DNA of 41,764 nt from Planctomycetaceae bacterium. GTDB taxonomy: Bacteria > Planctomycetota > Phycisphaerae > Phycisphaerales > SM1A02. The notes under the pieces are model-generated. The model was not told where the DNA came from, did not search any database, and worked only from the letters and a program-made list of their open reading frames with translations. Below are positions 595-18,229 of the stretch, piece after piece. Each line of letters begins with the position of its first letter. Within the stretch, counting starts at the first letter, position 1. The position numbers were made by a program, and so were the translations under genes. The DNA lies in NCBI GenBank assembly GCA_947474065.1, contig CANJHD010000017.1, forward strand, positions 1 through 41,764. Direction: 5' to 3'.

Positions 595-601
595 GAATTG
601 C

Positions 602-628: not shown

Positions 629-670
629 TTCGATACCGCCTGCACCTTGCCCCGCGCGATCGATGGAATC

Positions 671-1951
671 ATGTTCATGACAGCATCGAACCCCATCGCC
701 GCACCAACGGAGCCACAGTCGCCGAGCGCGGCGATCGATGCTGTGTGTGCACATCTGGATGCCCTAGAGACTGAATCGATTTCGCTAGCACAATCACCAG
801 GACGAGTGCTCGCTGAGGCAGTGCGCGCTGACCGCGCAAGCCCGGCGCTTGACATGAGTTCGATGGACGGATTCGCGGTGCGCGTTGCAGACCTCAACGC
901 GATGACCTCGACTACCGGTCTTCCAATTGCGACTGGCTCGAATTGCGAAGCGAGCATCGGTCATGCGCCAGTTTCCATGCAGCCCGCGCACGCGATCCGT
1001 ATCGTGACCGGCGCGCCGATTCCTATCGGCGCGGACGCCGTGGTGCGACATGAAGATGTCCGCGTCGCGAATGGCTTTGCGTTTTTAAAGATTGCCGCGA
1101 ACGCGGTGCTACCCGGCGCGTTCATCCGGCGTGCGGGTGAAAACGCATCGAAAGGTGCTGAAATTCTGCAAGCCGGAACACTGATCGGAGCGGCTGCAAT
1201 CGGAGCGCTCGCCACGTTCGGCGCGGCCAGCGTTCGCGTCCATCGCCGCGTGCGCGTGGCGATCATCATCACTGGTGATGAGTTAGTAACCACTGACCGA
1301 ACGCCCGCGCCGTGGCAGATTCGCGACAGCAACGGAAGTGTGCTCGCGGCGCTCCTCAGCGCGCGACCGTGGATCGAAGTGGTGTCACACCTGCACGCCA
1401 CGGACGATGCCGATGCGCTCGCGGCGACGCTTGCAACGGCGCTTGAATCAGCGGACGCGGTGATCCTGACTGGCGGCGTCTCCATGGGTCACCACGACCA
1501 CGTTCCGCAGGTGATCAAGTGTCTTGGTGCGGTCACGGTGTTCCACCGACTTCCGCAGCGACCAGGGCGACCGATGCTCGCGGCGGTGCTGCCGCGCGCT
1601 GGCACTCGGGCGCCGCGGCTGATTCTTGGCCTGCCGGGCAATCCTGTTTCAGTCATGGTCACGGCACGCCGCCTCGGAATTCCCATGCTTGGCAAGCTGG
1701 CCGGACTTCCCCACGGCGAGTTCACCGCGCCGCGCCTGCACACTGATGGCGATGACGGCGTACAACTCGGCATGTGGTGGTTCCGACTCGTCAGCGAGCG
1801 AGTCTCCGCGGAAGGCGAACGCCGACTGCACCTGCTGCCAACAAAGAGTTCAGGTGATATCGCTGCCGCCGCAACAAGCACTGGGTTTGTAGAAGTAGCG
1901 CCACACCAAAGCGCCGCGGGTCCAAACGCCTTCTATCCATGGATGCACTGA
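671..1951 (+). CDS. moeA: Molybdopterin molybdotransferase MoeA
   Basis: MoeA inserts molybdate into adenylylated molybdopterin, the last step of basic Moco synthesis. The 426-residue product has the usual length. Visible signatures are SSMDGFAVR near residue 60 (MoeA N-terminal domain), RIVTGAPIP and RHEDV near 110, TGDELV and RDSNG around 205-220, the MoCF-type LTGGVSMG near 270, and LPGNPVS near 320. I chose the ATG at 671 (an in-frame ATG at 677 is equally possible); the open frame further upstream runs through moaD on the other strand. It is divergent from moaD and is followed after 18 bases by moaC. It serves the molybdenum-dependent xanthine dehydrogenase encoded nearby. Confidence 0.93.
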   Translation: MFMTASNPIAAPTEPQSPSAAIDAVCAHLDALETESISLAQSPGRVLAEAVRADRASPALDMSSMDGFAVRVADLNAMTSTTGLPIATGSNCEASIGHAPVSMQPAHAIRIVTGAPIPIGADAVVRHEDVRVANGFAFLKIAANAVLPGAFIRRAGENASKGAEILQAGTLIGAAAIGALATFGAASVRVHRRVRVAIIITGDELVTTDRTPAPWQIRDSNGSVLAALLSARPWIEVVSHLHATDDADALAATLATALESADAVILTGGVSMGHHDHVPQVIKCLGAVTVFHRLPQRPGRPMLAAVLPRAGTRAPRLILGLPGNPVSVMVTARRLGIPMLGKLAGLPHGEFTAPRLHTDGDDGVQLGMWWFRLVSERVSAEGERRLHLLPTKSSGDIAAAATSTGFVEVAPHQSAAGPNAFYPWMH

Positions 1952-1969
1952 ACTACGAACGGAACCGCG

Positions 1970-2524
1970 ATGGCAACGAAGAAATCAACGAAACGCACTG
2001 CGAAGACACGACCCTCTTCACCATCACTATCGCACCTTGATGCGCATGGGCGCGCTGCCATGGTTGATGTCGGCGCGAAGCCCGTCACGCAACGCCGCGC
2101 CGTGGCCGAAGCCCGCGTGAAGATCTCGCCCGCGCTCGCGGAGCGAATCGCGCACAACACGCTTGCCAAAGGCGACCTGCTCGCGGTGGCGCGTCTTGCT
2201 GGGATACAAGCCGCCAAGCGCACTGATGAATTGATTCCGCTCTGCCATTCGTTGCCACTCGACTCCGTTGATGTGCGCGCAGAGTTACGCACCGACCATG
2301 TGTACCTCTGGGCGGAAGCGAAAGCGACCGCCCGAACCGGCGTTGAGATGGAAGCACTCACAGCGGTATCCATCGCCGCACTCACCGTGGTTGACATGGG
2401 AAAGTCAATTGATCGAACGATGACCATTGATGGACTTCGACTCTTAGAGAAAGAAGGCGGCCGAAGCGGTCACTTTCGCGCTGCTGCAGCATCGACAAAT
2501 AAAAACAAGCGAGCGGGCGCATGA
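1970..2524 (+). CDS. moaC: Cyclic pyranopterin monophosphate synthase MoaC
   Basis: MoaC converts the GTP-derived MoaA product into cyclic pyranopterin monophosphate. The 184-residue protein carries the whole family signature: LSHLDAHGRAAMVDVG near residue 20, KGDLLAVARLAGIQAAKRT near 65, IPLCHSLPLD near 90, VEMEALTAVSIAALTVVDM near 125, and GGRSG near the end. The PLCH and MEALTAV stretches hold the expected active-site residues. A basic extension of about 18 residues precedes the domain. The stop overlaps the start of the next gene (ATGA at 2521-2524). No moaA lies in the window, so the first Moco step must be encoded elsewhere. Confidence 0.96.
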   Translation: MATKKSTKRTAKTRPSSPSLSHLDAHGRAAMVDVGAKPVTQRRAVAEARVKISPALAERIAHNTLAKGDLLAVARLAGIQAAKRTDELIPLCHSLPLDSVDVRAELRTDHVYLWAEAKATARTGVEMEALTAVSIAALTVVDMGKSIDRTMTIDGLRLLEKEGGRSGHFRAAAASTNKNKRAGA

Positions 2525-3069
2525 GCACTGCCCCTTGCGTGGTCATTCTGACTGTCAGCGAGCGCTGCTCGCGCGGCGAGACCGTTGATACATCTGGCCC
2601 GACGCTGCAGGCCTTGGCAACGCAGCATCTCGGCGCCACTATCGCGCACGCCGAGTGCCTTCCGGATGACATGGCCGCGCTGGCTCAGTTCTTTGCGCAT
2701 TGGTCAGAAGAAACGCGCCATATTGACCTGATTCTAAGTACTGGCGGCACCGGTCTTGCCCCGCGTGACATCACTCCCGAAGCCCTGCGCACCGTCATGC
2801 ACCGAGAGCACGCCGGTCTCATGGACCTTTCGCGCCTGCGCTGTCTTGAGAAGACGCCACGCACATTTCTTTCACGAGGCATTGCAGGAACGATCAATCG
2901 CACGCTTGTCATCACGCTGCCCGGCTCGCCACGTGGATGCACCGAAATGTTTGAAGCGATCGCAGACATTCTTCCACACGCGATCGAAACGCTACGTGGC
3001 GATGTGCAAGATGATGGTCGACCAGAACTCGGTGGCGGGAACAAAGGCGTCATTCATCACCGCGACTGA
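2521..3069 (+). CDS. mogA: Molybdopterin adenylyltransferase (MogA/MoaB family)
   Basis: This 182-residue MoCF-domain protein should adenylylate molybdopterin before MoeA inserts molybdenum. It begins with the beta strand and ligand loop typical of MogA/MoaB (VVILTVSERCSRGE), has the nucleotide and pterin-binding STGGTGLAPRDITPEA near residue 77, and LPGSPRG near 140. MogA and MoaB cannot be separated safely by eye, so the symbol is tentative. It is coupled to moaC through a four-base overlap and is the last gene of moeA-moaC-mogA. Its 3' end overlaps the convergent xdhC by 13 bases, leaving no room for a separate terminator. Confidence 0.9.
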   Translation: MSTAPCVVILTVSERCSRGETVDTSGPTLQALATQHLGATIAHAECLPDDMAALAQFFAHWSEETRHIDLILSTGGTGLAPRDITPEALRTVMHREHAGLMDLSRLRCLEKTPRTFLSRGIAGTINRTLVITLPGSPRGCTEMFEAIADILPHAIETLRGDVQDDGRPELGGGNKGVIHHRD

Positions 3070-3890
3070 GGCGCTGCAGCATCGCGTTCTTGCAGCAATT
3101 GCGCTCCGATACTCACTGCAATTTCTGCAGGAGAGTTCGAACCGATTGGCAGCCCGACCGGGCAGCGAATCCGCGCGACAACATCCTTTGCGAATCCGTC
3201 TTTCACCAGTGCGCTTCGCAACGTGCGGGCCTTCGGCTCACTGCCAATGACCCCAACGAAAGCTGCATCGCCGCGGCGCAAGATCTCGCGAACGATGGGT
3301 AAATCCGTTGCGTGCCCCTGCGACATGCAAAGGAAGAATGTCCCCGCTGGCAACACGGCGACTGCGTGGGCAGGTTCCGCCGCAAGCACCTTTCGCACAT
3401 TCGGGCGCACAACGATCCGCGAAATCCATTCCTCGCGTGGATCAAAGCAAGAAAGGCTGCAATCGAACGTGGAAAGAAGCGACACCGTCGCCTGCGCAAC
3501 ATGCCCCGCGCCAAACACCGCAATGTTCCAACGAGGGAGCGTCGAGATCTCGTAGAAGAAAGTGGCTGCGCCGCCACACACCATGTTGAGATCTCGCTGC
3601 AATTCGTAGCGGACGATCTCAGGAGGAATGGATTGCGCATGGGAATGGCTTGACCCAAGCCCAGTCTCCGCGCGCGCGATCATCTCCTGGGCATGCACAA
3701 TCGCCCGCGCCTCAAGCCTGCCGCCGCCGACCGTTCCCCAAGCGAGCCCGGCGGCGGTGATGATCGCCTTGGCACCAATGTCTTGCGGAACATGTCCCTC
3801 TGGCTCGATCAGCGTGACTGTGACAAAGACCACGCCGCGCTCAGAAAGCGCGCTGGCATGTTGGAGGTAATCACGCATAGAACAAGTCAT
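3057..3890 (-). CDS. xdhC: XdhC family Moco insertion/maturation factor for xanthine dehydrogenase
   Basis: XdhC binds Moco, supports its sulfuration and delivers it to the XdhB subunit of xanthine dehydrogenase. The 277-residue product has the family hallmarks: WGTVGGGRLE near residue 51, MVCGG near 103 (the conserved cysteine for Moco binding), a Rossmann-like VFGAGHVAQA near 125 and FDPREEW near 148, with IGSEPKART in the C-terminal half. It lies 16 bases after xdhB and is the last gene of the leftward fusion-xdhA-xdhB-xdhC set. An in-frame ATG five codons in is an alternative start. The tail overlaps mogA on the opposite strand. Confidence 0.93.
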   Translation of the reverse strand: MTCSMRDYLQHASALSERGVVFVTVTLIEPEGHVPQDIGAKAIITAAGLAWGTVGGGRLEARAIVHAQEMIARAETGLGSSHSHAQSIPPEIVRYELQRDLNMVCGGAATFFYEISTLPRWNIAVFGAGHVAQATVSLLSTFDCSLSCFDPREEWISRIVVRPNVRKVLAAEPAHAVAVLPAGTFFLCMSQGHATDLPIVREILRRGDAAFVGVIGSEPKARTLRSALVKDGFAKDVVARIRCPVGLPIGSNSPAEIAVSIGAQLLQERDAAAPQSR

Positions 3891-3906: not shown

Positions 3907-6423
3907 TCACTGCTGGCCACCATTCGCCACTTGCATGTCACGAGCGTCCCAGGCGGCGAACATCTGCGGCGACAGCCCGCGCAAGACGCGTTCTGCAGTG
4001 GCTGGAATCGCCAACGGTACAAGTTGGGCATGCTGACCACTCGAAACGGATGCATCACTCGACCGCGCCGACATGATCGCATCGCGAACCGCGGTCCACA
4101 CTGAGATCGACAGAAGGAGCGGTGGCTCGCCCGATGCCTTCGACCCGCGCACATTCACCGAATTTCCATGGTTAAAGATGAGGTCTGCATTGAAGACACG
4201 TGGCGTGTCCTGGACACTGGGAATCTTGTACGTACTTGGCGAATGCGAAAGCAATTTGCCGTTTCCGTCATACACCAGATGCTCCGTGGTGAGCCACCCC
4301 ATCCCTTGCACGAATCCGCCCATCACTTGCCCCATGTCGAGCGCGTGGTTCACCGGTCGACCCATGTCCATGAGAATGTCGACGCGTCGCACCTTCACTT
4401 CGCCGGTGTCGCGATCAAGCTCCACCTCACTCGCGGCGACGCCCTGCGTGAAGTACAGGAACGCTCTGCCCTTGCCGGTGAGCTTGTCGAATCCAAGGTC
4501 CGGGATGCTGTAATGCGCGTACTCGCTGACTGAAATTCGATTGAGGTACGCCTCGCGGACAAGTTCTGCAAACCCAACGGTAAACACTGATCCAGAGCGA
4601 TCCGTCACGGTCACCACGCCGTTGCGGAATTCCACACGCTGCTCGTCGGTGCCGCGCGGACTGACTCCTGAGCCCACCGCGATTTCTGGCATTGTTCCGA
4701 GCCCGGCAGTCTTTTTTGCCCACGATTCCGGTGGAATCGACCGCAGGCGGATCGCCAACGCTGACAGACGAGCGCAAATAGTCTCGCACGCCTGAAGCGC
4801 TGCGGCACCATTGATATCCGTGCCTGTGGATGCAGCGGTCGGCGATGTATTCGCGTTCTTCTCCGTCGATGTCGGCATAATCCGTACCGATCCCGTCGGC
4901 AATCCGAACTGCTCCGCAACGATCGCTGCAATGCGCGCATTCACGCCCTGCCCCATCTCGACTGCGCCGGTTGAAACCTGCACAGTGCCGTCGCGATGGA
5001 GATTGACGAGCGCGTTGCCTTGGTTCAAAAACCGCGTTGTGAACGAAATACCAAACTTGACCGCCGTCAGCGAAAGACCGCGCGAATGCCCGTCCGGATT
5101 GCGCGCGCGATCGGCGTTCCACGCTGCGATTTCCGCGCGGCGCGCGCGGTACGCGCACCGCTCCGTGAGCGTTGCGAACAGTTCCGGCAAGTGGTTGTCC
5201 TCAACGCGCTGCCCATAAGGCGTCATGTCTTGTCCGGGTCCGTAGCAATTCAACACGCGAACATCAAGCGCGTCGCGATCAACAACGCGTGCAATGTCCT
5301 CAATGACGGACTCAATGAGTGCAACGCCCTTCGGGCCACCGAAGCCACGGAATGCCGTGTGTGGATGGAAATTGGTGCGGCACACCTGCCCCCGCACACG
5401 CATATTCGGAATGAAATACGCGTTATCGCAGTGCAACATCGCTCGTTCCATAATCGCCGTGGAAAGATCGGCATACGCACCGCCATCAGCATGCAACATT
5501 GCATCCAGCGCAATGATTCGGCCGTCCGCATCGAAGCCGCACTGATACTCAATCCGGAAGGGATTTCGCTTCCCGGTGATGATCATGTCATCGTCCTTTG
5601 AAAGAACGAGACGCGCCGCGCGGCCAGTCTGCTTCGCAACCAATGCGGCATACGCGGCAATCGGAGCCGCCTGCGATTCCTTGCCACCAAACCCGCCACC
5701 GAGTCGCTTAGCAATGCACACCACATCGCTGAATCGCACGCCGCACGCTTCCGCAACCACATGTTGCGTTTCGGTTGGATGCTGCGTCGACGAGTGCACT
5801 TCAAGTTGCCCGTCTTCGCGCGGATACACCACCGCCGCCTGACTCTCAAGATAGAAGTGGTCAGCGCCCCCGATCTCCAGCGTTCCCGCAACGCGGTGAG
5901 GCGACCGCGCAAGCGCAGCCACTGCGTCACCGGTTGCGATCGTGCGTTCGGAGCCGATGAAACTCTTCGCGGCAACCGCTTCTGCCACGGTGCGAATGGC
6001 TGGCAATTTCTCCCATTCCACTACAACCTCAGTTAAACCCTTCGCCAGTGCTTCCTTGGTCTCGGCCGCCACCACAGCAACCACTTCCCCAACAAAGTTC
6101 ACTTCGGCCGCTGCAATGATCGGCTGGTCTTGAAAGATGGTGCCCCACGCGTTGTGCGCCACATCCGCGGCAGTCACAGCGCACACAACACCAGGAACAG
6201 CCAGCGCGGGCGCAATGTCCAGCCGACGAACGCGTGCATGCGCATACGGGCTGTACACCAGCCCGCAGTGCAGTTCGCCCTTCACCATTGGGCGGTCATC
6301 AACATATTCTGACTTCCCTGTGACATGAGTGACCGATGAATCGTGCGGCGCCGATCCCGGATCGGCAATGATCGCAGCGAGCCGACCGGGTGCTTCGGAG
6401 TGTTCAGCCACGGAGCACCTCAT
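3907..6423 (-). CDS. xdhB: Xanthine dehydrogenase molybdenum-binding subunit XdhB
   Basis: This 838-residue large subunit holds the Moco site where xanthine and hypoxanthine are hydroxylated to urate. Residues matching the bovine xanthine pocket are visible: E249 in GGGFGGKE (bovine E802), R327 in MERAM (R880), F361 in FRGFGG (F914), F461-T462 (F1009-T1010) and E766 in SGEPP (catalytic E1261). The spacings 249-327-361 equal the bovine 802-880-914 exactly. Aldehyde oxidases lack the Glu/Arg pair, so xanthine dehydrogenase is well supported. There are about 50 extra residues between positions 560 and 620 relative to the animal enzyme, as also seen in some bacterial XdhB. The start overlaps xdhA by 20 bases; xdhC follows. 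Confidence 0.96.
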   Translation of the reverse strand: MRCSVAEHSEAPGRLAAIIADPGSAPHDSSVTHVTGKSEYVDDRPMVKGELHCGLVYSPYAHARVRRLDIAPALAVPGVVCAVTAADVAHNAWGTIFQDQPIIAAAEVNFVGEVVAVVAAETKEALAKGLTEVVVEWEKLPAIRTVAEAVAAKSFIGSERTIATGDAVAALARSPHRVAGTLEIGGADHFYLESQAAVVYPREDGQLEVHSSTQHPTETQHVVAEACGVRFSDVVCIAKRLGGGFGGKESQAAPIAAYAALVAKQTGRAARLVLSKDDDMIITGKRNPFRIEYQCGFDADGRIIALDAMLHADGGAYADLSTAIMERAMLHCDNAYFIPNMRVRGQVCRTNFHPHTAFRGFGGPKGVALIESVIEDIARVVDRDALDVRVLNCYGPGQDMTPYGQRVEDNHLPELFATLTERCAYRARRAEIAAWNADRARNPDGHSRGLSLTAVKFGISFTTRFLNQGNALVNLHRDGTVQVSTGAVEMGQGVNARIAAIVAEQFGLPTGSVRIMPTSTEKNANTSPTAASTGTDINGAAALQACETICARLSALAIRLRSIPPESWAKKTAGLGTMPEIAVGSGVSPRGTDEQRVEFRNGVVTVTDRSGSVFTVGFAELVREAYLNRISVSEYAHYSIPDLGFDKLTGKGRAFLYFTQGVAASEVELDRDTGEVKVRRVDILMDMGRPVNHALDMGQVMGGFVQGMGWLTTEHLVYDGNGKLLSHSPSTYKIPSVQDTPRVFNADLIFNHGNSVNVRGSKASGEPPLLLSISVWTAVRDAIMSARSSDASVSSGQHAQLVPLAIPATAERVLRGLSPQMFAAWDARDMQVANGGQQ

Positions 6424-7879
6424 TGCCGAAGCGTCGGAAGATATTTGCAGCAGTCACGCGCCGGTACGCACCGCTGCCGCGAACATCAGAGATCGGCGCG
6501 ATTGATCCAGCGATCAGTTCCGCCACCGATTCGATGCGCGCCGGCGTGAGTTCGCCGCACAGCGCCTGCTCTGCATCCGGCATACGGACGGGCGTCGCTG
6601 CAACTCCACCGTAAGCGATCCGCGCAGACGCCACACACGGCGCCGATTTGCCGCGACGCCCAGCGCTGAGCGTCACCGCAAATGCCCCGCTCACTGCACT
6701 GATATCCAGATCCTTGCGCTGCGAAACTTTGCAGAGTCGCAGTACTTCGCGCGAAGGTGTCCGCTGAAACGACACGTGAGTAATGATCTCGCCCGGCTCA
6801 AGCGCTAGTTGTTTGTATCCAACATACAAATCGGTCATTGCAATGGTGCGCTTGCGAATCGGTCCCTTGCCGCCAGGTCGCCCAGCGACATGCACCGTGC
6901 CGCCTGCAATCAACAGGAACGGCAGCGTGTCCCCAATCGGCGAAGCGTTCGCAATGTTTCCGACCAGCGTTGCAACGTTCTTAATCTGCGGCGACGCAAA
7001 CAAGTTGAGGAACCGCGCGAACTCCGGAGCAACGTCCTCGCTCACGCGGCGCACCTGTGCAAGCGTCACGCGCGCGCCGAAGGTGGCACCACCGCGCGTC
7101 ACCTTGGTTTCATAGAGCTCCGGTACAAGGTGCAAGCTTAGAAGCGCCGTGGGCATGGGCTTACCTTTGTTGACCTGCACGCCAAGATCAGTAGCTGCCC
7201 CGATGACCCGGAATCCCGGATGGATCGCAGCAAAGGTGACTGCCTCGCGCAGCGTTGCTGGCGCGAACAATTCCACGCCGTCATGTTGCACTCGCATCGA
7301 CTGCTCGGTTGTCGCGATCGATTCAGCAACTGCGAACATATCGGAATATCGAAGCGCCACGGAATGTTTCTCAGTAGCGCGCACGGTAAGTGCCGCCTGA
7401 ATGATCGGCGCATATCCGGTACAGCGGCACAAATTGCCCGTGAGATAGTTCATTGCGGTCCGCTCATCGGCCTGCGCATGCTTCTCCAACATACCGCTCA
7501 ATGCCATCACGAAACCCGGCGTGCAATAGCCGCACTGCGATGCATGACACGCGCGCATGGCATCCTGCGCTGGCGATAGCTCGCTACCGGACTGCATCCC
7601 TTCCACCGTGACGATGTGCGCGCCGTCCATCTGCGCCACGGTCGCAATACAAGAATTCATTGCCTCATATTCAAACGCCACACCCGCGGCAAAGGCTGCG
7701 CCTGGCCGCGGAAATGCACGCAACACCGTGCACGCTCCGCAGTCCCCTTCCGCACACACAATCTTTGTGCCAGACAGGCCGGCTTCCTTGCGCAACCACT
7801 CCGCGAGCATCATCAAGGCCTCGCGACCTCGGATCTCTCGGCGCACGCCATTCACATGAATAAGTGCATAATTGCGCAT
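6404..7879 (-). CDS. xdhA: Xanthine dehydrogenase small subunit XdhA (2Fe-2S and FAD domains)
   Basis: XdhA carries electrons from the molybdenum site through two 2Fe-2S clusters to FAD and NAD+. In the 491-residue product the plant-type ferredoxin cysteines are C42, C47, C50 and C77 (CAEGDCGAC, then NSC), and the second cluster has C116, C119, C151 and C153 (CGYC and CRC). The FAD domain begins near residue 200 with RVIGAATDLG, followed by NVATLVGNIANASPIGD. This is the split Rhodobacter-type arrangement. I prefer the ATG at 7879; a GTG two codons upstream (7885) is the alternative. It begins about 35 bases after the 1575-residue fusion gene and overlaps xdhB, so the three are probably one transcript. 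Confidence 0.95.
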   Translation of the reverse strand: MRNYALIHVNGVRREIRGREALMMLAEWLRKEAGLSGTKIVCAEGDCGACTVLRAFPRPGAAFAAGVAFEYEAMNSCIATVAQMDGAHIVTVEGMQSGSELSPAQDAMRACHASQCGYCTPGFVMALSGMLEKHAQADERTAMNYLTGNLCRCTGYAPIIQAALTVRATEKHSVALRYSDMFAVAESIATTEQSMRVQHDGVELFAPATLREAVTFAAIHPGFRVIGAATDLGVQVNKGKPMPTALLSLHLVPELYETKVTRGGATFGARVTLAQVRRVSEDVAPEFARFLNLFASPQIKNVATLVGNIANASPIGDTLPFLLIAGGTVHVAGRPGGKGPIRKRTIAMTDLYVGYKQLALEPGEIITHVSFQRTPSREVLRLCKVSQRKDLDISAVSGAFAVTLSAGRRGKSAPCVASARIAYGGVAATPVRMPDAEQALCGELTPARIESVAELIAGSIAPISDVRGSGAYRRVTAANIFRRFGNEVLRG

Positions 7880-7914
7880 CGGCACGATCGTAGCACCCGC
7901 AGCAGGCGCGCTAC

Positions 7915-10900
7915 TCAGGGCGCGGCGAACACCCGCACCCGATTCATACCGCCATCGGGAAACACCGTGACACGAATCTGCTCACACGGGCCAACCCCGC
8001 CCACCTCGAAGGCGATGACATTTCCAGCGAACGCCTTGACGTCCGTCCGAGCAACCAATGGAACCCACTCCGTGCCGCGCAAGCCGTCGATCTCCACCTC
8101 GCGCGGATTGTTGTTGACGAAATGGCTGAAATCCAACTCAATTCGGCCGATCTTCGCCGGTCGCCCAAGCCTGATCACCACATTCTCCGAGTGACCCGGC
8201 TCGCGACTGCGCGCCGACTCGAGCCCGTCCACCATGCTCAGTGGCGGATACGGCGAGATGACCTGAGTGGCTGGCGAATAGTGCTCGTTGGAAGCGGACA
8301 CCACCTGACCACCAAAGGCTGCGCTCGCAAGATCCGCCAACCCACTGCCGACCCGGGTGATGTTGGCAGCGATCTCCGCAGTGGTCGCCGAGTATTTCGG
8401 CGTCATCGGCTTCTTCGTTTGCGGATCAAAGGCCGGCCAAGCGCGGATCGCGGGCGAAAGCATGCGCGTCTTCTCAGCAACAGGAAGATCATTCCCGTAC
8501 AGCGCGAGGCGTGTGACGCCCCCATCGGGGTACATGCGCACGCGGATCCGCTGAAACTGAGCACTGCCCGAAACAGACTCCACCGCGTGAGCCGCGTGCC
8601 CATAGAGTTGCATCGGCGTCACAATCGCCTGCCACTCTCCGCGCACTGCATCCCAACCCTCGATTTCAAGCCCCTCGGCATGATTTCCAAGATGGAACTG
8701 CGTCGACACCGCCACACAACTGACGGCCGCAGCGCGCGGCATTTCAAAGATCATCCAATCGAACGGTTCCGGATTGTGGCGAACCGTTTCCCAACTATCC
8801 ATGATCTTTCCCTGGCGACCAAAGAGCGACGGATCGAACGTTGGCAGATACGGCGACAGCAGATTCTCTGCGCGCGCAAATCGCTGGTTTGAAACGTCTT
8901 CGACACGCGCGCCCACTGCATGATTGAAATCAGCGAGCGGATCGCGTGCGCCGTGCGCAATGATTTGCTCAGGAAGATCCGCTGCACATGCTGCGAACAC
9001 CAATTCGCGGTAGCCCGCATTCACGCGCTGTTCAATTGGAATGCCGCCGAATGCCAGATCACTCCGAAATCGGTCCGTGTCTACGCCGCGCATTCCAAAG
9101 TGCCGCAGGATGATCTGCGCTGCCTCCGCTACGAACAACATGCCCGCGTGCTCGCCGTTACACAACACCACGAAGCCGTTCCCCGCGTCTGGTCCCGCAT
9201 AGCAATGGACGAAAAGCGCACGGAATCCATCGTTCGCGCCCTGATGTATCGCAAGACGATTCGGTCCTGCTTCCGATGTGAAGATGCCAAGACCCATGGT
9301 GCAGCCCATAAATTCACGACATCCCTTATCGAATCCATGCAACATCCGCACTGCCGTCTCATGTGAAATCGGCCCGCATCCGCCGAGGCTCTGGTGCGCG
9401 TCACTTAGCGCCACAAGGAACCGCGCTATGTCAGCTGCCGATGCCACTGCACCAGCAGCGATCGCGGGGAACACCTTGCGCGTTCCAACCACCGGCTCGC
9501 CAGAATCAAGGAAGCCGGTGGCGCATTCCGACCCAACCAATGCATCCTCACGGAACGTGCATCCGTCCATCCCAAGCTCGCGCAAGAACGCGCTCATCTG
9601 CACATGAACGGGCGAGCCGCCCATGCACTCGATGAGGTGTTGGAGTACCAAGAATCCACCGCCCGAATATTGGAACCGCGTTCCCGGCGCATTCACAACA
9701 CCCACTGGCTCGTACCCATGTCGCTCGTTACCGTTCAGTAGTTCCACGATCGGCGGAAATGCCTGGTTTGCAGGCACGCCATTCACATAATGCATGTTCA
9801 AGCCCTGGTGCGACATCAGGTGCGCCACCGTGACTTGATCTGCCCATTCTGGATGCGCGGCGTCAAGAGACCGGATTCGAAACTTCGAACCCGCCTTTGC
9901 AAACAGCATGTTCACGCTGGTAGAAATCGGAATGCCCGCCTGGCGGAGTTGCTCCATCACAAAGCACGTACCGATGCTCTTACTGAGTGAGGCAATCTCA
10001 AAGCCCGTCTGCGGAGTCACTGCATGAAGCGCATCGCGATTACCAAACTGAAGCGACTGCAGATGATTTCCTGGCGAGGCTACGCACACCGACGCACCAT
10101 TCACCCCGTGCCGCGCCAGTGCGGCGGCGAGTTCATCCATCACCGTATCCACTGGCTGTACTTGCAATCGACCCTTGGTGATCTGCCACAGCGCATCGCG
10201 CGCGTTCTCCAACTCCACTTCGTGTGATTGGTTGATCCGCGTTCGCAGCGCCTCAAGCAGTTCTGCTCCGGAACGCCCCTTGGCCGCCACCAAGAATTTG
10301 AAGCCGAACTGCCCTCGGTATCGGCTGCCAAGGGCGCGAAGTTCCTGCGCAACCTCGGCCGCGTCTCCCAAGACCTTCGCCTGCTCCTGCGCCGCTGTCG
10401 CGTCAAGCGTCCGAGCAGCCTCTCCAATATCACCGTGAAAGTGCGCGGCCTCATTGATCTCATGGATGTCAAAGCTGCGCACCAACTGCTCGGCCTTGGA
10501 AAAATCCAACACCGAATCCAGCGCCATCTGCTCCGCAAACCGCTGACTCCCACACGCTGAGAAGAATGCGTGCAGGCGAGCGAGCCGCTTCGGAATCACA
10601 TATTTGTTCCGATCGACCGCCTGCATCGCCGCCCACGGATCGTCTTGCATTCGGATCGCATCAAGCGTGAAAGGCAGCAGTAATTCTGTAGCGAATTCAA
10701 CCGGGGACTCGCCGCCCATCAGTTGCAGCATCAAATTCATGGCCACCGGATACCACTTCCGCGTGCGATCGTCCCACTTCACTTGCACAATCTTGCGTTG
10801 GTCCGAGAGATCCTTGCGGATGAAATGCATTTCCTCGTGCGCGAGGCGCATGAAATCTGCGCACGAAAATCGCCCGTGATGCAATTCGTGCCAAACTTCC

Positions 10901-12642
10901 CAGCGCGATCGCTCGGCGGTGGCCAAATCATCCATCACACGCACAGGCACGCCATCGATATTCGCTGGAAGTGCAACGCAACCGTTGCCGCTCAACCAGT
11001 CGGTGAGGTACTGCAGCGCCTGGAAGATGTTGTAACGAATCTCCTCCGGGTCATTGTTGGCAACGAACCCCGGCGCGTTTCGATCCGCCACAAGCAGCGA
11101 CCGCGGATACAACGGATCGTTCCGATCCAGACCACGCACATCTGGACCATGGATAAAATTCAGCACCTCACGCTGGTGTTCAGGCAAGAGAAGCTCCGTG
11201 ACAAGCGCGTCCAGCGACGCGCCGTCTCCCTGCTTCGCCCGCTGCCACGCCTCCACGAGTGCCAACCCCAATCGAACGAAATCTGGGTGCGCCACCCAGA
11301 ATCCAGAGAGATCACGCTTCATCTGCGTGATGACATCCTTAATAAATCCCTTGATAGCCACCTGAAATGATGCGCCACGAACATCCCCGTCGGCGGGCAG
11401 TACGCCGTACATACCGCCAACCTTGATGCCGCCGCGTGAACCAACCACCTGCGCAAGAAGATCATGTGACGCCTTGATGTAATTGATGACGATGCCCGGA
11501 TCCGCCTTCACGGGGATCCGATAGTTGCCGTCATTCTTCATCAGCCGCGCCGTCGATGCAAGGAAGTCATGCCACCCAAGCGACGCGCCCGCGAAGTACG
11601 GATGCAGCGCATCCATGATCTCATTCACACGGAACATCGCGCGTGGATTCTCCAACACAATGAGCAGTCGAATACTGCCAATTCGATACTCCGGATGTTG
11701 CGTAGCAATCAACTGCTCCGCCCGCTCAAGCATCACGCGAATGTACGCTGCCTCCTCATCCGTCTCCAGTTTCGGAACGTAGAAGGCCAATGCTTGCGGA
11801 TTGTTCCAGTTTGCATAGAGGTGCAGCGCAAAGTCGTAGAGATGGAGCGGAAGCGGATTGCCGTGCAGGAAGAGAAACGGGCACGGCAATGCCAACCCCG
11901 GAAACCGCTTGATCGGCACTGATCGATGCGACGCCGCCAGCCGATACTCCTTGCCAGAGCGCGGATCGTCATACGAAATCGTTCCCTGCAGACAGCCAGT
12001 GAGATTCTCGCCCGCAAGTACAAGATCACCGCGCAGCGGCGTCTTGGAATCCTCGTCGTCAGCGCCCCATTTCGCGGATCCTGAAAAATCTTTCAGCAGT
12101 TCCGCCACGATCGCCGGCTCGCCGGGAAGTGTTCGATGAAATGCATTCATCGCATTGATGGAAAGTTTCGCATCGTCTGGCGGACCAAACAGCGTCACAT
12201 GGCTTCCCTGCAGAAACTCCGGAATCGGCGCAATCGGCGCCCCGCCTCCTGACGTGCAGTAATGACTGTTGCGCGGACCAATCACCACGCGACCCTCCGC
12301 GTCTTCCTGCCCAATCACGGTGCGATACGCCGGATCGCCGTAATCAACATGAAGCGTCGCATTGAGTTCGAAGCACGCGCGCGTTCTTTCATCAATAAAC
12401 GCACGATCCGCCACGCGCTGCTTCAACACAGCAGCCAGATCCGGTCGAACCGCTTCGTACAAATCACAGAGAAATCGCAGCGATTCTGGGCTTTCAAGAC
12501 CACCTCCGGCCCCCAATTGCAACAGACCTGCCACCTCCGCAACGGGCATCATCTGCGGTTCAAGGTGCCCGATCAGCTCCGCGGAAATGTAGTCGCGATA
12601 GGGGGGGATATCGGGCAACTTCACAACGCCTCGTGCGGTCAT
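7915..12642 (-). CDS. Multidomain urate-degradation protein: malate synthase + OHCU decarboxylase + beta-lactamase-fold hydrolase + allantoicase
   Basis: One uninterrupted 1575-residue frame. Residues about 60-670 resemble malate synthase A: E331 and D359 have the 28-residue spacing of the family's magnesium ligands, FYVPKLET lies near 287, and MDDLATAE at 570-577 matches MEDAATAE with catalytic Asp at D572. Residues about 690-830 are OHCU decarboxylase: FFSACGS, H736 in HGDIG, E753-Q754, FGFKF at 780, R825. Residues about 833-1180 are a serine hydrolase of the class C beta-lactamase/S12 type: S885-x-x-K888, Y992-S-G, H1133-Q-G. Residues about 1233-1384 and 1435-1575 are the two allantoicase repeats (YPDGG, FPDGG; MDSWET, MVDGLES). 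No signal peptide, so probably cytoplasmic. It heads the xdhABC operon and faces uraH-uox. The beta-lactamase domain's role is unknown. Confidence 0.88.
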   Translation of the reverse strand: MTARGVVKLPDIPPYRDYISAELIGHLEPQMMPVAEVAGLLQLGAGGGLESPESLRFLCDLYEAVRPDLAAVLKQRVADRAFIDERTRACFELNATLHVDYGDPAYRTVIGQEDAEGRVVIGPRNSHYCTSGGGAPIAPIPEFLQGSHVTLFGPPDDAKLSINAMNAFHRTLPGEPAIVAELLKDFSGSAKWGADDEDSKTPLRGDLVLAGENLTGCLQGTISYDDPRSGKEYRLAASHRSVPIKRFPGLALPCPFLFLHGNPLPLHLYDFALHLYANWNNPQALAFYVPKLETDEEAAYIRVMLERAEQLIATQHPEYRIGSIRLLIVLENPRAMFRVNEIMDALHPYFAGASLGWHDFLASTARLMKNDGNYRIPVKADPGIVINYIKASHDLLAQVVGSRGGIKVGGMYGVLPADGDVRGASFQVAIKGFIKDVITQMKRDLSGFWVAHPDFVRLGLALVEAWQRAKQGDGASLDALVTELLLPEHQREVLNFIHGPDVRGLDRNDPLYPRSLLVADRNAPGFVANNDPEEIRYNIFQALQYLTDWLSGNGCVALPANIDGVPVRVMDDLATAERSRWEVWHELHHGRFSCADFMRLAHEEMHFIRKDLSDQRKIVQVKWDDRTRKWYPVAMNLMLQLMGGESPVEFATELLLPFTLDAIRMQDDPWAAMQAVDRNKYVIPKRLARLHAFFSACGSQRFAEQMALDSVLDFSKAEQLVRSFDIHEINEAAHFHGDIGEAARTLDATAAQEQAKVLGDAAEVAQELRALGSRYRGQFGFKFLVAAKGRSGAELLEALRTRINQSHEVELENARDALWQITKGRLQVQPVDTVMDELAAALARHGVNGASVCVASPGNHLQSLQFGNRDALHAVTPQTGFEIASLSKSIGTCFVMEQLRQAGIPISTSVNMLFAKAGSKFRIRSLDAAHPEWADQVTVAHLMSHQGLNMHYVNGVPANQAFPPIVELLNGNERHGYEPVGVVNAPGTRFQYSGGGFLVLQHLIECMGGSPVHVQMSAFLRELGMDGCTFREDALVGSECATGFLDSGEPVVGTRKVFPAIAAGAVASAADIARFLVALSDAHQSLGGCGPISHETAVRMLHGFDKGCREFMGCTMGLGIFTSEAGPNRLAIHQGANDGFRALFVHCYAGPDAGNGFVVLCNGEHAGMLFVAEAAQIILRHFGMRGVDTDRFRSDLAFGGIPIEQRVNAGYRELVFAACAADLPEQIIAHGARDPLADFNHAVGARVEDVSNQRFARAENLLSPYLPTFDPSLFGRQGKIMDSWETVRHNPEPFDWMIFEMPRAAAVSCVAVSTQFHLGNHAEGLEIEGWDAVRGEWQAIVTPMQLYGHAAHAVESVSGSAQFQRIRVRMYPDGGVTRLALYGNDLPVAEKTRMLSPAIRAWPAFDPQTKKPMTPKYSATTAEIAANITRVGSGLADLASAAFGGQVVSASNEHYSPATQVISPYPPLSMVDGLESARSREPGHSENVVIRLGRPAKIGRIELDFSHFVNNNPREVEIDGLRGTEWVPLVARTDVKAFAGNVIAFEVGGVGPCEQIRVTVFPDGGMNRVRVFAAP

Positions 12643-12751: not shown

Positions 12752-13102
12752 GTGACACCTACCGCAGACCTCGGCCTTTCAACCCATGTCCTGAACACGT
12801 CGAATGGTCTACCGGCGTCAGACATGCTGATTCGCCTCGAAATGCTTGAGGGAACTGCATGGCGCGAACTAGACACAGCGCGCACTGATGCCGATGGTCG
12901 TGCCCGCGGCCTCTCCAAGGGCGCTCTCCGCGCTGGGGATTACCGCCTGAACTTTGCCACTGGCGCATGGTTCGCCGAACGAGGCGTGGAATGCTTCTTT
13001 CCCGCGGTCATGATTGAGTTCCGAGTCTCCGATCCCAAACGCCACCACCACGTACCGCTCCTTCTGAGCCCGTTCGGATACTCAACGTATCGAGGAAGTT
13101 AA
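12752..13102 (+). CDS. uraH: 5-hydroxyisourate hydrolase (transthyretin-like HIUase)
   Basis: This 116-residue protein hydrolyses 5-hydroxyisourate, the urate oxidase product, to OHCU. The transthyretin-fold signatures are all present: LSTHVLN near the N-terminus (active-site His), TDADGRA near residue 45 (active-site Arg), HHHVPLLLSPFGY near 97, and the diagnostic C-terminal YRGS. Translation starts at a GTG with no visible ribosome binding site. Uricase begins three bases after the stop, so the two form an operon. The divergent fusion protein carries the next enzyme, OHCU decarboxylase, giving a complete route from urate to allantoin. Confidence 0.96.
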   Translation: MTPTADLGLSTHVLNTSNGLPASDMLIRLEMLEGTAWRELDTARTDADGRARGLSKGALRAGDYRLNFATGAWFAERGVECFFPAVMIEFRVSDPKRHHHVPLLLSPFGYSTYRGS

Positions 13103-13105
13103 ATC

Positions 13106-14017
13106 ATGGCAATCATTCTTGGCGAAAATCGATATGGCAAAGCGGAGAACCGGGTGTTCCGCGTTACCCGTACCGGCGACATTCATGAGGTACTTGATCT
13201 CAATGTCTCGGTGCAACTCAGCGGTGACTTTGATGACACGCATACCGTCGGTGACAACGCGAATATTCTTCCGACCGATACGCAGAAGAACACCGTCTTC
13301 GCCCTGTCTCATCAACACGGCGCCATGGAACCGGAAGCATTTGGCTTGATCATTGCGCGCCACTTCATCGCCTCGCAACCGCACATCACCAAGGCTGAAG
13401 TCCGAATTGAGAAGTTCCAATGGGACCGGATTATTTCGCAAGGCTCTCCGCACCCGCATGCCTTTCAACGCAACGGTTCAATGACGCGCACTGCCACGGT
13501 GCTGATATGCCGCACTGCAGAAAGCACCCGCGAATTCGTCGTGTCGGGCCTGGAAAATCTAGTTGTACTCAAGACAACTGGTAGCGAATTTACGGGTTAT
13601 TTACGCGACCAATACACCACTCTCGCCGAGACCACCGACCGAATCATGGCCACGCAAGTCTCCGCACGCTGGCGTATTGCCGCGACGGATGCGCCCACAC
13701 TCGACGGCATGAACTGGGCAAAGATCTTCCGCGAATCGCTCGACGCGATGCTCACCGCATTCGCCGAACACCACAGCCTTTCGCTACAGCAGACCCTGTT
13801 CACCATGGGCGAGTGCGTGCTCTCCGATGAACCGGCAATCGCGGCGATCCGGATATCGCTCCCCAACAAACATCACTTTGCGGTTGACCTGACGCCGTTC
13901 GGTCGTGAAAATCGCAACGAGGTCTTCATTGCAGCGGATCGCCCATACGGTCTCATCGAGGCGGTCATCGAACGGGACGACACGCCACCGATGACGGATG
14001 GGTGGCCGTCATGGTGA
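13106..14017 (+). CDS. uox: Urate oxidase (uricase)
   Basis: Cofactor-free urate oxidase turns urate, O2 and water into 5-hydroxyisourate and H2O2. The 303-residue length is usual. Family motifs: ENRYGKAENRV near the N-terminus (catalytic Lys), KNTVFAL near residue 70 (the Thr of the Lys-Thr dyad), LKTTGSEF and a DQYTTL segment near 155-170, TDRIMAT, and the PNKHHF urate-site region near 255. No signal peptide is visible, although many peroxide-producing uricases are kept apart from the cytosol in eukaryotes. A GGAAG ribosome binding site overlaps the end of uraH. The gene converges on the ABC transporter ATPase with 33 bases between stops and no clear terminator hairpin. Confidence 0.96.
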   Translation: MAIILGENRYGKAENRVFRVTRTGDIHEVLDLNVSVQLSGDFDDTHTVGDNANILPTDTQKNTVFALSHQHGAMEPEAFGLIIARHFIASQPHITKAEVRIEKFQWDRIISQGSPHPHAFQRNGSMTRTATVLICRTAESTREFVVSGLENLVVLKTTGSEFTGYLRDQYTTLAETTDRIMATQVSARWRIAATDAPTLDGMNWAKIFRESLDAMLTAFAEHHSLSLQQTLFTMGECVLSDEPAIAAIRISLPNKHHFAVDLTPFGRENRNEVFIAADRPYGLIEAVIERDDTPPMTDGWPSW

Positions 14018-14050: not shown

Positions 14051-15190
14051 TCATCGATCGCCGCGACGGTAATCCAGGCTCGGTCGCCGATGACTCCGCG
14101 CCTCTAGCTCCGGCGTACGCCAGCAGCCCACCCACCGATTCGGGCGCACTTCAACAAGCACATGTTCATCACGGTCCGGCGCGCCTTCCGGGCGAACGCC
14201 GGGTGGCATATCTGGCCACCACGGAATCACACCAGGAATCTTGCGGAATTCAGCTGGATCGTGCGTTACATCCTTGATAGTCACCAGGCGCTCGCGGGTG
14301 TCACGCAGCATCGGAATTGAACGGAACAAACCGCGCGTGTATGGATGCAACGGCTCATCAAAGAGCTCAAACACGTTGGCGTATTCCACCACGCGACCCG
14401 CATACATGACGCACACGACATCTGCGTTCTCAGCAACCACTCCTAAATTGTGAGTGATGAGCATGATGCCCATATCACGAGTGCGCTGTAATTCACGCAG
14501 CAATTCCAGAATCTGCGCCTGAATAGTCACGTCAAGTGCGGTGGTCGGCTCGTCAGCAAGCAACACCTTTGGTCGGCAGGCGAGCGCCATCGCAATCATC
14601 ACGCGCTGGCGCATACCGCCGGAGAATTGATGCGGATACATCGCCAGCCGTTCTTCCGGCTTCTTGATGCCAACATCTTTCATCGCCTGCACAGCAATCC
14701 GCTTTGCTTCATCCGGGCCAACCTTCTGATGTAAGAAGATTGCTTCCATCAACTGATCGCCAATGTTGTAGACGGGGTTGAGACTCGTCATCGGCTCTTG
14801 GAAGATCATGGCGATTTTCCCGCCACGAATAGAGAGCATCTCTTCTTCGCTCAAGCTGACAATGTCACGCCCTTCAAACAAAATGCTGCCGCGGTCAAAT
14901 CGTCCCGGCGGGCGCGCGATCAACTGCATGGTGCTCATGGCAGTGACGCTCTTGCCGCAACCAGACTCACCAACCACCGCCAGCGTTTGCTGAGGAAACA
15001 GCGTCATATGGACGCCATTGACTGCCTGAATGCGCGGTCCACCCGAGGAGTTGTCGAAGCTGACCGCAAGGTCGGCAACCTCCAACACCGGAATCGCGAG
15101 GCGCTCCGCGCTGCCAACGCCACCACTCATGGCGCGCACTGCGTCCTGTGTGGATTGATCATGTGATGTCTTGACTGCAGATGGGCTCAT
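14051..15190 (-). CDS. Oligopeptide/dipeptide ABC transporter ATP-binding protein (OppD/DppD type)
   Basis: The 379-residue ATPase has Walker A GESGCGKS at residues 74-81, the Q-loop in [13 protein letters not shown] signature FSGGMRQRV, Walker [13 protein letters not shown] and the switch His in LITHNLG. After the ATPase core comes the oligopeptide-type extension ([11 protein letters not shown] and onwards). An unusual polar tail of about 70 residues follows. It is the last gene of a five-gene leftward transporter operon, and its start overlaps the stop of the upstream permease (ATGA). No OppF/DppF partner is visible, so either it works as a homodimer or the partner is elsewhere. Substrate cannot be read from the sequence. 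Confidence 0.92.
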
Positions 15191-16698
15191 CAGTGTGCCG
15201 CCTTCCGAAGTTTCGGGTCAATGGCGTCGCGCATCGCTTCGCCAAGCATGTTGTAACTCAGTACTGAAAGGAAGATTGCCAACCCAGGGAACACTGCCAA
15301 CCACCACACAAATGTTCCGGTGGCTGCGGTTGCGCTCGAGAGCAACTTGCCCCACGAAGCCTGACCGTCTGGCCCAAGGCCAAGATATGAAAGCGTCGCC
15401 TCAATGGAAATAGCGGCAGCAATCGCAAAGCTTGCGTCCACCAACACGGGCGTCACTCCGTTCGGCAGCATGTGTCGAAAGAGAATCGCACGGAGCGGCA
15501 ATCCCGTTGCCTTTGCCGCCTGCACAAAATCTTGATTGCGCAACTTCATGAACTCGGCTCGCGTAAACCGCGCCGCGCCCGTCCAACTGAAGCAGCCGAT
15601 GATCGCCATCATCACGTAGGTGTCGCGCGGCAACACGCCCGCAGCAACGATTAAGAGAAAGAGCACCGGCACAGCCATGAAGATCTCCACAACGCGGAAG
15701 AGAATCATGTCGACCTTCCCGCCGAAGTATCCCATGATGGCGCCCATCGTCACGCCGATGACTACTGAAATACCCGTAGAAACCAGCCCGATAGAGATGG
15801 AAAGCCGGCACGCCCAGAGCATCTGCGAAAGGACATCCCCACCAAGCGCGTCGGTGCCGAGCAACACACGGCGCTCACCGAACGAAGTCCCCTTGAACTG
15901 CGCTAACTGCTCAACATCCGCAATGCGCTCGCCCGGCGCGATCGCAACCATGTCGCTGCGCGAGTATTGCGGCGACCACGGGACGAGCGTCCAAGTGACT
16001 TCGCGGATCGCGCCCGACTTCTCGTCCTCCATGTAGCGCTCAAAGTTGATGAGCGTGGCTCCCCCACTCGCGCCAGAAAGTCCCCAGCCGACGAGCAGCG
16101 CAAGAACAGCTGCACCCACACGCACTCGGCGCGAGTCGACCGTCGGTATCCACGCCCCAGCCAGAGCAAACAGCACTGAAACCACACCGATGATTGTCCA
16201 CGGACCAGCACCGCTGCGCGCGAACGCCTTGACCCACTCGGCGCGACCTGGATCTTGCGCCCATCCGACGATGGCGCCCGCGATCACAATAGTGAAGCCC
16301 ACCTGAAGCGCGGCCACCACGAAGATCCCCAGTCGCTGCGCACGCGTGAGGCTGCGTGGCCCAACGAAGATCCATGGCAGTCCAACAAAGCATCCGATCA
16401 GGAGCGCCCAATCCGTGGGGGTGAGATTCGCAAGCAACGGCCACTCACGCACTGCCATGCCGCCAGCACCCACACGCACTAACGTCAGCGGATGCGCATT
16501 GGCCACTATTGGCCCAAATACAGCAAAGAACGCGATCACACCGATCCAGCAAATTCCAAAGATCGCGCCGGGGCGCTTCAGAACGCGCTCCCACGCATCG
16601 GCCCAGAATCCCTTGGCGCGCACCGCGCCAACGCCGCGCATCACATCGATGCCGGAGATCGCTGCAGGAATAGCGGCTGTGTCCTTACTCTCAGTCAT
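15190..16698 (-). CDS. DppC/OppC-type ABC permease with a large membrane insertion
   Basis: The C-terminal half, from [14 protein letters not shown] near residue 280 onward, is a standard binding-protein-dependent permease with the cytoplasmic EAA-like loop ([21 protein letters not shown]). The protein has 502 residues, whereas DppC proteins usually have about 300. The excess lies between the first membrane helix (about residues 46-66) and the core and contains about four extra hydrophobic segments (near 96-112, 124-148, 166-188 and 194-210) plus a polar stretch. The gene overlaps its neighbours on both sides (8 bases with the DppB-like gene, 1 base with the ATPase gene). The insertion's purpose is unknown. 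Confidence 0.88.
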
Positions 16699-18211
16699 AA
16701 CTCACCCGCGGGTCGGCCGCTGCATAGAGGATGTCCGCCAAGAGAAGTGCCAGCATGTTGACGCAGGCAATCAGAAATGTGTCCGCCAAAATCAACTCCC
16801 GGTCGCGAAGATCAATGGCCTCAATCACCAGGCTGCCCATGCCAGGCACGCTGAAGATGCGCTCGATCACCACGCTGCCAGCGAGCATTGCCGGGAAGAT
16901 GCCAACGAACATCGTGATCAGTGGAAGCAAACTATTGCGGAAGACGTGTCGCAGCACTACATCCTTGCGCGGCACGCCCTTCGCCTTCGCGGTGCGGACA
17001 TAGTCGGCACTAAAGTTGTCGAGCATTGAGGCGCGCGTCTGCTTCGAAAGCACAGCAAAGCTGCCGTACACCAAGCACAGAACCGGCAGACCAACATGCC
17101 AGAGCGTGTCGAGCAGATAGCCGCGCTGCCACACACCAGAAGCGTCCGTGAACGGCATGAATGTGTACGCCTCGGAGCCGCTCTCGTGCAGCCCGCTCAC
17201 CGGGAACCACCCCAAGTATTGCTTGTTCGCCAAGAACCCAATCGCGAATACTCCGGCGAGCACCGTCGGGATGGAATACAGCGACAAGTACAGGAACCCA
17301 GAGAACGTATCGAACAACCCACCACGACGAACGCTTGCAAGCACGCCCGTCGGCACCGCAATCAGATACGAGATCGGGAATGCAATCAGGTTGATGAGAA
17401 GCGTGACAGGAAGCGCTGCCGCAATCAGATCCCATACCGGACGATTCTTTGAGAATGCCACGCCCAGGTCGGGCGTGTCGAGGCTCACCACATCCGGAAT
17501 AATCGGGATGCCACTCGTCGGATACGGGTGCGCGTGAAACGCTTCCGTCGCCTGTACCTGCGCCACGACCGCGGCGGTATGCGCCGTGTGCATGTCCGCG
17601 GCAGCCTTCTCCAATTTCGGCCACGCCGCATTCGAATGATCGAACGCAACATCACTGAAATCGCGCGGGTCGGCGCCGCCCTTGCCGTTCAATCGCTCTT
17701 TCAGCGGACTACCAGCTGCACGCGCATAGTCGGCGATGGCATCCTTGAAGAGACGCACCTTGCCCACGTACTCGCGTCGCGTTCCCTCCGCATCGCGCTG
17801 CAACTTCTTGAATTGCGGGATCGCGCCTTCGCCGGTCGCAATGGCCAAGGACGGCACCGTGACCGCTGGCACTGGGAACGCCGTAGCAAGCGGCGGATCA
17901 TCAATCGCGCGCGGAGCTGGCACGCGCTCGCCGTTGCCATCGCGCAGATCGCGGGTACCAAACTTCACTGGCGAAAGGCGTCCAAGCCAACGCACGTACT
18001 GCACGATCACTGGATCGTTCAGCCCGTAGCGGTCTTCCAGATACGCCTGCATCTGCGCCACGCGGCTCGTGTCAGACATCTGCCCGCCCTGCACTGCTAA
18101 CCCCGCACCGATACCGCCCGGCGCAAGCGCCAACAGCATGAACACCATCAGCGTGATTCCGAGGAGGGTCGGAACCATGAATGCGAGGCGTCGTAAGAGG
18201 TAGGAAAGCAT
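16691..18211 (-). CDS. DppB/OppB-type ABC permease with a large periplasmic insertion
   Basis: The N-terminus MLSYLLRRLAFMVPTLLGIT is the classic DppB opening, and the C-terminal 220 residues carry the permease core, including the TAKAKGVPRKDVVLRH EAA loop and the closing ADPRVSYD. The product has 506 residues against about 310-340 for usual DppB. About 165 extra residues, mostly polar and helical, split the conserved periplasmic loop 1: its first half ends near residue 95 (SPVKFGTRDL) and the DLGVAF half resumes near 249. The insert should be exposed in the periplasm, where it could contact the binding protein. It lies 18 bases after the solute-binding protein gene. Confidence 0.88.
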   Translation of the reverse strand: MLSYLLRRLAFMVPTLLGITLMVFMLLALAPGGIGAGLAVQGGQMSDTSRVAQMQAYLEDRYGLNDPVIVQYVRWLGRLSPVKFGTRDLRDGNGERVPAPRAIDDPPLATAFPVPAVTVPSLAIATGEGAIPQFKKLQRDAEGTRREYVGKVRLFKDAIADYARAAGSPLKERLNGKGGADPRDFSDVAFDHSNAAWPKLEKAAADMHTAHTAAVVAQVQATEAFHAHPYPTSGIPIIPDVVSLDTPDLGVAFSKNRPVWDLIAAALPVTLLINLIAFPISYLIAVPTGVLASVRRGGLFDTFSGFLYLSLYSIPTVLAGVFAIGFLANKQYLGWFPVSGLHESGSEAYTFMPFTDASGVWQRGYLLDTLWHVGLPVLCLVYGSFAVLSKQTRASMLDNFSADYVRTAKAKGVPRKDVVLRHVFRNSLLPLITMFVGIFPAMLAGSVVIERIFSVPGMGSLVIEAIDLRDRELILADTFLIACVNMLALLLADILYAAADPRVSYD

Positions 18212-18229
18212 CGGTAGCGCCGGAGCGCG

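Follow-up and report, generated by a model that had tools for sequence, protein, structure and literature searches.

The Planctomycetaceae genome studied here encodes a single protein that likely carries out several steps of urate breakdown, with a serine beta-lactamase-fold domain predicted to act as a serine-hydrolase allantoinase. We consider this reading about two-thirds probable, and we infer every reaction in it. The gene lies within a 41,764-nt stretch of DNA, here called the window, and a preliminary description had proposed that its product joins most of the lower urate-degradation pathway. The four domains, their order, their residues and the genomic setting put forward in that proposal all stand, but the proposal left the beta-lactamase fold without a role, and this domain is now the likely allantoinase.

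Table 1. Coordinates of the fusion gene, its domains and motifs, and the neighboring purine genes in the window
Feature	Position	Strand	Remarks
XdhC, xanthine dehydrogenase cofactor insertion protein	3057..3890	-	
Xanthine dehydrogenase large (molybdopterin) subunit	3907..6423	-	
Xanthine dehydrogenase small subunit (FeS/FAD)	6404..7885	-	
Four-domain protein gene	7915..12642	-	1575 aa, stop codon included
Allantoicase repeat 2	7918..8340	-	residues 1435-1575
Allantoicase repeat 1	8464..8922	-	residues 1241-1393
Serine beta-lactamase-fold (CubicO-like) domain	8968..10158	-	residues 829-1225; predicted allantoinase
H1133 of HQG motif	9244..9246	-	
Y992 of YSG motif	9667..9669	-	
S885-x-x-K888 (SLSK) motif	9979..9990	-	
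OHCU decarboxylase domain	10159..10575	-	residues 690-828; H736, E753, Q754 invariant
Malate-synthase-A-like domain	10648..12642	-	residues 1-665
5-hydroxyisourate hydrolase (HIUase, PF00576)	12752..13102	+	divergent from fusion gene
Uricase (PF01014)	13106..14017	+	

The fusion is encoded in one intact frame, as first described, which starts with ATG, spans exactly the interval in Table 1 and contains 0 internal stops. A Pfam search recovered all four domains in the claimed order and over their curated cut-offs: malate synthase TIM barrel (PF01274, residues 250-461, 64.8 bits against 26.4) and MS_C (PF20659, residues 533-652, 40.5 against 23.1), OHCU_decarbox (PF09349, residues 715-827, 77.5 against 24), Beta-lactamase (PF00144, residues 839-1176, 84 against 27), and Allantoicase in two stretches (PF03561, 178.5 against 27). 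Sequence matches to solved structures agree with these assignments, and include yeast allantoicase, malate synthase A, OHCU decarboxylases and a DD-peptidase. Across 19 aligned fusions, 24 of 25 key positions over the four domains are invariant, which bears out the conservation of catalytic residues noted initially; the exception is D1563 in the second allantoicase repeat. A structure model of the last three domains (residues 666-1575) reached a pLDDT of 92.2 and a pTM of 0.91, with the OHCU decarboxylase domain as a folded part; a single-sequence prediction of residues 825-1575 (pLDDT 34.7) was left unused. In the fold comparison the best Foldseek row was yeast allantoicase 1o59 (E 9.5e-27), with a large rmsd over the repeat pair and a TMt of 0.42, and the VIA rows covered mainly model residues 41-527.

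Stricter models place several parts of the protein at the margins of their families. In NCBIfam searches, the scores stay below the equivalog cut-offs for malate synthase A (TIGR01344, 134.1 against 594.5 bits), OHCU decarboxylase (TIGR03180, 70.8 against 139.4; TIGR03164, 34.1 against 96.25) and allantoicase (TIGR02961, 199.2 against 277.9), and these three parts are therefore regarded as divergent family members. Judging by sequence, the malate-synthase part is a related subfamily outside malate synthase A proper, although both of its Pfam domains score over their cut-offs. OHCU decarboxylase membership rests on PF09349 and on H736 and E753, invariant in the 19 fusions, which we take to be the catalytic His and Glu. 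Allantoicase membership is indicated by the two PF03561 stretches and the match to the yeast structure, and PF00144 hydrolase membership by the fold together with the SxxK, Tyr and HxG residues. A role as an antibiotic-resistance beta-lactamase is rejected on the score of the class C model (bla_class_C, 17.6 against a cut-off of 415 bits) and by the pathway setting.

The purine-catabolism setting claimed for the gene is evident on both sides. Only 109 bp separate the fusion gene from the divergent HIU hydrolase and uricase genes, and xanthine dehydrogenase, XdhC and molybdenum cofactor (Moco) genes lie on the other side. Genes for MoaC and a MoCF protein occur at 349-3069, near xanthine dehydrogenase and XdhC; the opposite strand carries a ThiS-type protein and two unassigned frames. 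Directly past the uricase, at 14051-21227, are oligopeptide-type ABC transporter genes (ATPase, permeases and solute-binding protein); this putative transporter may import purines or ureides. Scanning the window for tRNAs and for Rfam families at gathering score gave 0 matches.

Similar neighborhoods recur at 80 fusion loci, where gene clusters were built by BLAST and each named from one representative. An HIUase cluster was found in 66 of the 80 loci, a urate oxidase cluster in 58 (PF06181 in 49 and PF01014 in nine), and both in 52; xanthine dehydrogenase clusters occur in 24 and PF00383 deaminase clusters in ten. The HIUase gene adjoins the fusion in 64/80 loci. In 49 of them the two genes share a strand, and the median gap there is 5 bp when the earliest start codons are used. 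It is absent from the gene calls in 14/80, some of which are cut contigs and others (e.g. L011, L012, L013, L059, L073) not. One fusion thus occurs with two urate oxidase families, either PF06181 (Urate_ox_N; the representative has 545 aa, L077:8000-9634) or PF01014 uricase. Because HIUase and urate oxidase accompany the fusion, the urate pathway could need only three gene products.

An allantoinase is required to link the OHCU decarboxylase reaction to that of allantoicase, and assignment of the beta-lactamase-fold domain to this step depends on a comparison of genomes. The fusion set comprises 51 genomes, the window's (79% complete) and those of 50 of the 80 loci, chosen before any allantoinase result; the fusion genomes may be incomplete, and the 30 loci outside the set include short contigs, partial matches and some full-length copies (e.g. 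L059 and L073). As controls we used ten other allantoicase-bearing genomes, of 11 among 246, all from the same phylum and without the fusion. The two known allantoinase types are AllB (TIGR03178), of the amidohydrolase family, and the PuuE type (TIGR03212), which is polysaccharide-deacetylase-like. Neither model matches the fusion protein (NCBIfam, E <= 1); the reaction that it is proposed to have in common with both types is allantoin to allantoate. AllB was over its cut-off in 0/51 fusion genomes, in contrast to 9/10 controls, where 53-431 bp separate it from the allantoicase match (Fisher p 5.8e-10, a value that ignores shared ancestry). In the tenth control, which is 66% complete, the matches are fragments, and one of these, scoring 30 bits, adjoins the allantoicase. 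PuuE-type matches, sought in the fusion genomes only while AllB was sought in both sets, were over cut-off in 0/51, with weak matches under 30 bits in seven. Because no match to the known types is over cut-off in the 51 fusion genomes while AllB is over cut-off in nine of ten controls, the beta-lactamase domain is likely the allantoinase.

The controls also show how the pathway is arranged without the fusion. Pfam scans of one frame in each of nine controls (G131 was left out) revealed no beta-lactamase or malate synthase domain. Allantoicase and OHCU decarboxylase share a frame in five (G095, G116, G181, G184 and G200), whereas the scanned frame holds only allantoicase in G056, G108 and G134 and only OHCU decarboxylase in G152. 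In G181, the one control operon that was read widely, AllB, the allantoicase-OHCU decarboxylase protein, HIUase and urate oxidase are encoded together; this is the same pathway with AllB in place of the beta-lactamase domain.

It could instead be that allantoin is hydrolyzed by an unfused enzyme, such as a dihydropyrimidinase, a dihydroorotase relative or some other protein, and that the beta-lactamase domain is structural or an unrelated hydrolase. D-hydantoinase is over its cut-off in 18/51 fusion genomes and cyclic amidohydrolase matches below cut-off occur in all 51, as this explanation would lead one to expect, but 33 of the 51 lack AllB, the PuuE type and D-hydantoinase alike over cut-off. 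Sixteen of the regions with sub-cut-off matches were fetched, and all ten proteins classified from them fit dihydropyrimidinase or dihydroorotase models best. The D-hydantoinase match in the window's genome is a dihydropyrimidinase that belongs to a reductive pyrimidine-breakdown set (L084, 227-8123), alongside dihydropyrimidine dehydrogenase-like subunits, a carbon-nitrogen hydrolase and a class III aminotransferase. Since the beta-lactamase domain also shows no variation in its catalytic residues, we regard an unfused allantoinase as unlikely.

Those residues, S885, K888, Y992 and H1133, are unchanged in the 19 aligned fusions, and the motifs ASLSK, YSG(G/A)G and HQG(A/S)N each occur in 120/120 of the fusions listed among 640 relatives. 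By family analogy, the Ser of SLSK is presumably the nucleophile and its Lys the general base; the third position of YSG is Gly where YxN enzymes have Asn. The nearest solved folds include the amide hydrolases D-amino acid amidase (Ochrobactrum anthropi) and R61 DD-peptidase (Streptomyces). The fusion domain differs from these and from CubicO-like esterases, all serine beta-lactamase-fold hydrolases, in forming its own clade, in carrying YSG where they have YxN and in sitting within a pathway fusion; identity is ~20%. Together with free-standing relatives it makes up one starred clade (100/100), separate from general CubicO proteins, in a tree whose 'solo' rows include pieces of cut fusions and from which rows of <370 or >520 aa were excluded. 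Free-standing relatives of the domain (among P0125-P0174) include some from eukaryotic records, with entries named Prymnesium parvum (P0135) and Effrenium voratum (P0142) and a EukProt transcript (P0155). A link to purine breakdown was sought for these free-standing proteins, and none was established. On the basis of the genome comparison, the beta-lactamase-fold domain is likely a serine-hydrolase allantoinase. That it represents a new kind of allantoinase, a serine beta-lactamase-fold enzyme working through an acyl-enzyme inside a urate-to-malate fusion of planctomycetes and Bdellovibrio-like bacteria, with free-standing algal relatives that would be allantoinases as well, is a proposal toward which the balance tilts slightly.

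At the other end of the protein, residues 1-665 form one malate-synthase-like unit, since the sequence ahead of the TIM barrel can be aligned both to free-standing relatives and to the N-terminal region of AceB. R246, E331, D359 and D572 align with R166, E250, D278 and D447 of E. coli AceB and are invariant in the 19 fusions; we take the AceB residues to be catalytic, with the two Asp serving respectively at the metal and as acid/base. Sequence kinship and these four residues are what the fusion has in common with malate synthase A, represented by AceB and by DAL7 of the yeast DAL cluster. Unlike malate synthase A, however, it is divergent, scores below TIGR01344, is fused and has lost AceB R168 and H171, which are P248 and A251 in the fusion. 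Subfamily motifs unlike those of AceB are widespread among the 120 fusions listed of 640, with PIKRxPGLAxP in 108 and GASLGWHD in all 120.

A large free-standing malate-synthase-like family of ~680 aa, ~51-63% identical to the fused domain (among P0193-P0312), occurs in Desulfogranum, Desulfosediminicola, Myxococcota and other records, where its members bear names such as malate synthase or aldolase/citrate lyase family. In the nine free-standing proteins that were aligned, all four catalytic residues of AceB are present, but the pocket is distinct. A search of 392 genomes of the phylum for a free-standing gene matched two, and no free-standing neighborhood could be read there because both matched frames are long: that of the window has 1585 aa and the other has 1682 aa.

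The genomes were also searched for other malate synthases and isocitrate lyase. Besides the fusion, 16/51 fusion genomes have a full-length match to malate synthase A (seven over the curated cut-off and nine at 479-518 bits), and the same 16 have an isocitrate lyase match of >150 bits on the same contig; malate synthase G was over cut-off in 0/51. Strong isocitrate lyase matches occur in 5/10 controls. Weak partial matches to isocitrate lyase (38-53 bits, spanning ~100 positions out of 526) that exceed the Pfam cut-off were left out of these counts; they occur in the window's genome, in 11 other fusion genomes outside the 16 and, in addition to the strong match, in some of the 16 themselves. 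In the remaining 35 of the 51 fusion genomes, including the window's, the fused domain is the sole malate synthase found and there is no strong isocitrate lyase match, so the domain likely consumes purine-derived glyoxylate. Such a source is plausible, and in yeast the malate synthase DAL7 likewise disposes of glyoxylate derived from allantoin (PMC3646786).

Alternatively, the malate-synthase-like domain might be a lyase using the same metal site, for example one that converts ureidoglycolate to glyoxylate and urea. The TIGR01344 score far under the cut-off, the altered motifs with the loss of R168 and H171, and the failure to find another ureidoglycolate lyase could all be read in this way. 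Yet the four AceB catalytic residues are all conserved, the same subfamily is free-standing in other bacteria, and in 35 of the 51 fusion genomes no malate synthase other than the fused copy was found; we therefore think a lyase rather improbable and favor a glyoxylate-consuming malate synthase.

Cleavage of ureidoglycolate is the step to which no domain of the fusion is assigned, so the route from OHCU to malate needs either a spontaneous reaction or a domain acting in an unaccustomed role. Ureidoglycolate lyase (PF04115) was found in 0/51 fusion genomes and also in 0/10 controls, and its absence was accordingly dropped as a telling gap. The same absence, and the position of the beta-lactamase domain directly before allantoicase, would fit a beta-lactamase domain that acts on ureidoglycolate or another ureide in place of allantoin. 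We give this little credence, because it is AllB that separates the fusion genomes from the controls, which lack PF04115 as well, and because ureidoglycolate is described as decaying spontaneously to glyoxylate and urea (PMC3793230). Allantoin thus remains the favored substrate of the domain.

The fusion itself is recurrent. A search of 5.8 billion proteins returned 640 relatives at E <= 0.001, and the 120 listed show 95-100% query coverage, 54-94% identity and all five Pfam families. This coverage indicates a conserved family and not a chance joining or chimera. When genome contigs were scanned with each species represented by a single genome, 120 stretches encoding the fusion came up; the 80 that were kept belong by record title mostly to Planctomycetota, Bdellovibrionales, Bacteriovoracaceae or Oligoflexia. 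Carriers include named isolates on long contigs, such as Bdellovibrio sp. HCB337 with the fusion on a 4.28-Mb contig. Although the window comes from a draft assembly of 133 contigs, the open frame, the near-complete coverage in listed relatives, isolates included, and the encoding stretches fetched from other genomes rule out a chimera or frameshift and make the chance of an assembly or frame artefact negligible. One 819-aa relative (P0233) ends just past the OHCU decarboxylase domain; it may be a form with two domains, malate-synthase-like and OHCU decarboxylase, or else a copy that is broken.

The four-part form was new to the preliminary description; it recurs in other genomes, and the combination of domains was already visible in databases, where one entry is called 'allantoicase/malate synthase/CubicO group peptidase'. 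Other relatives are called, for instance, 'serine hydrolase' or 'malate synthase', and if the proposed functions are right, caution with such annotations would be warranted. Among the matches listed in a search of PMC full texts, neither a four-part fusion nor a beta-lactamase-fold allantoinase was described, and fusions of consecutive urate-breakdown enzymes are known (PMC3646786, PMC7710942). In the parts of those two papers that concern them, the fusions have two activities each and neither malate synthase nor a beta-lactamase fold is named; Cryptococcus neoformans is described as keeping a separate allantoinase, DAL1 (PMC3646786). Two-part pathway fusions are thus already on record, and the literature searched in PMC suggests that the four-part form is undescribed. 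The bifunctional allantoicase/OHCU decarboxylase of the five controls (e.g. L112, 10013-11512) combines two of the fusion's activities in a single chain, but with allantoicase first and OHCU decarboxylase second, without malate-synthase or beta-lactamase domains, and with a separate AllB adjoining; in G181 it stands beside HIUase and urate oxidase.

We propose the following course for the pathway. Uricase and HIU hydrolase, encoded by the divergent neighbors, would produce OHCU, which the OHCU decarboxylase domain would convert to (S)-allantoin. Attack on a ring amide of allantoin would come from Ser885, acting together with Lys888, Tyr992 and His1133, and would give an acyl-enzyme, whose hydrolysis would release allantoate. 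The allantoicase domain would then yield urea and ureidoglycolate, and the latter would break down to urea and glyoxylate, either spontaneously or aided by some further site. Finally, the malate-synthase-like domain would condense glyoxylate with acetyl-CoA to form malate, removing a reactive aldehyde.

If this is true, a gap in the textbook pathway would be filled by a fold better known from antibiotic resistance and cell-wall peptidases, and an unassigned CubicO-like clade would gain a function. Purine degradation would be contained in three gene products (urate oxidase, HIU hydrolase and the fusion), with urate carbon passing to malate, and most of the genomes searched that would have this route show no sign of a glyoxylate shunt. 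Channelling of intermediates may occur, being compatible with the high-confidence model that covers residues 666-1575, and the fusion would offer a ready system for the channelling of unstable ureides.
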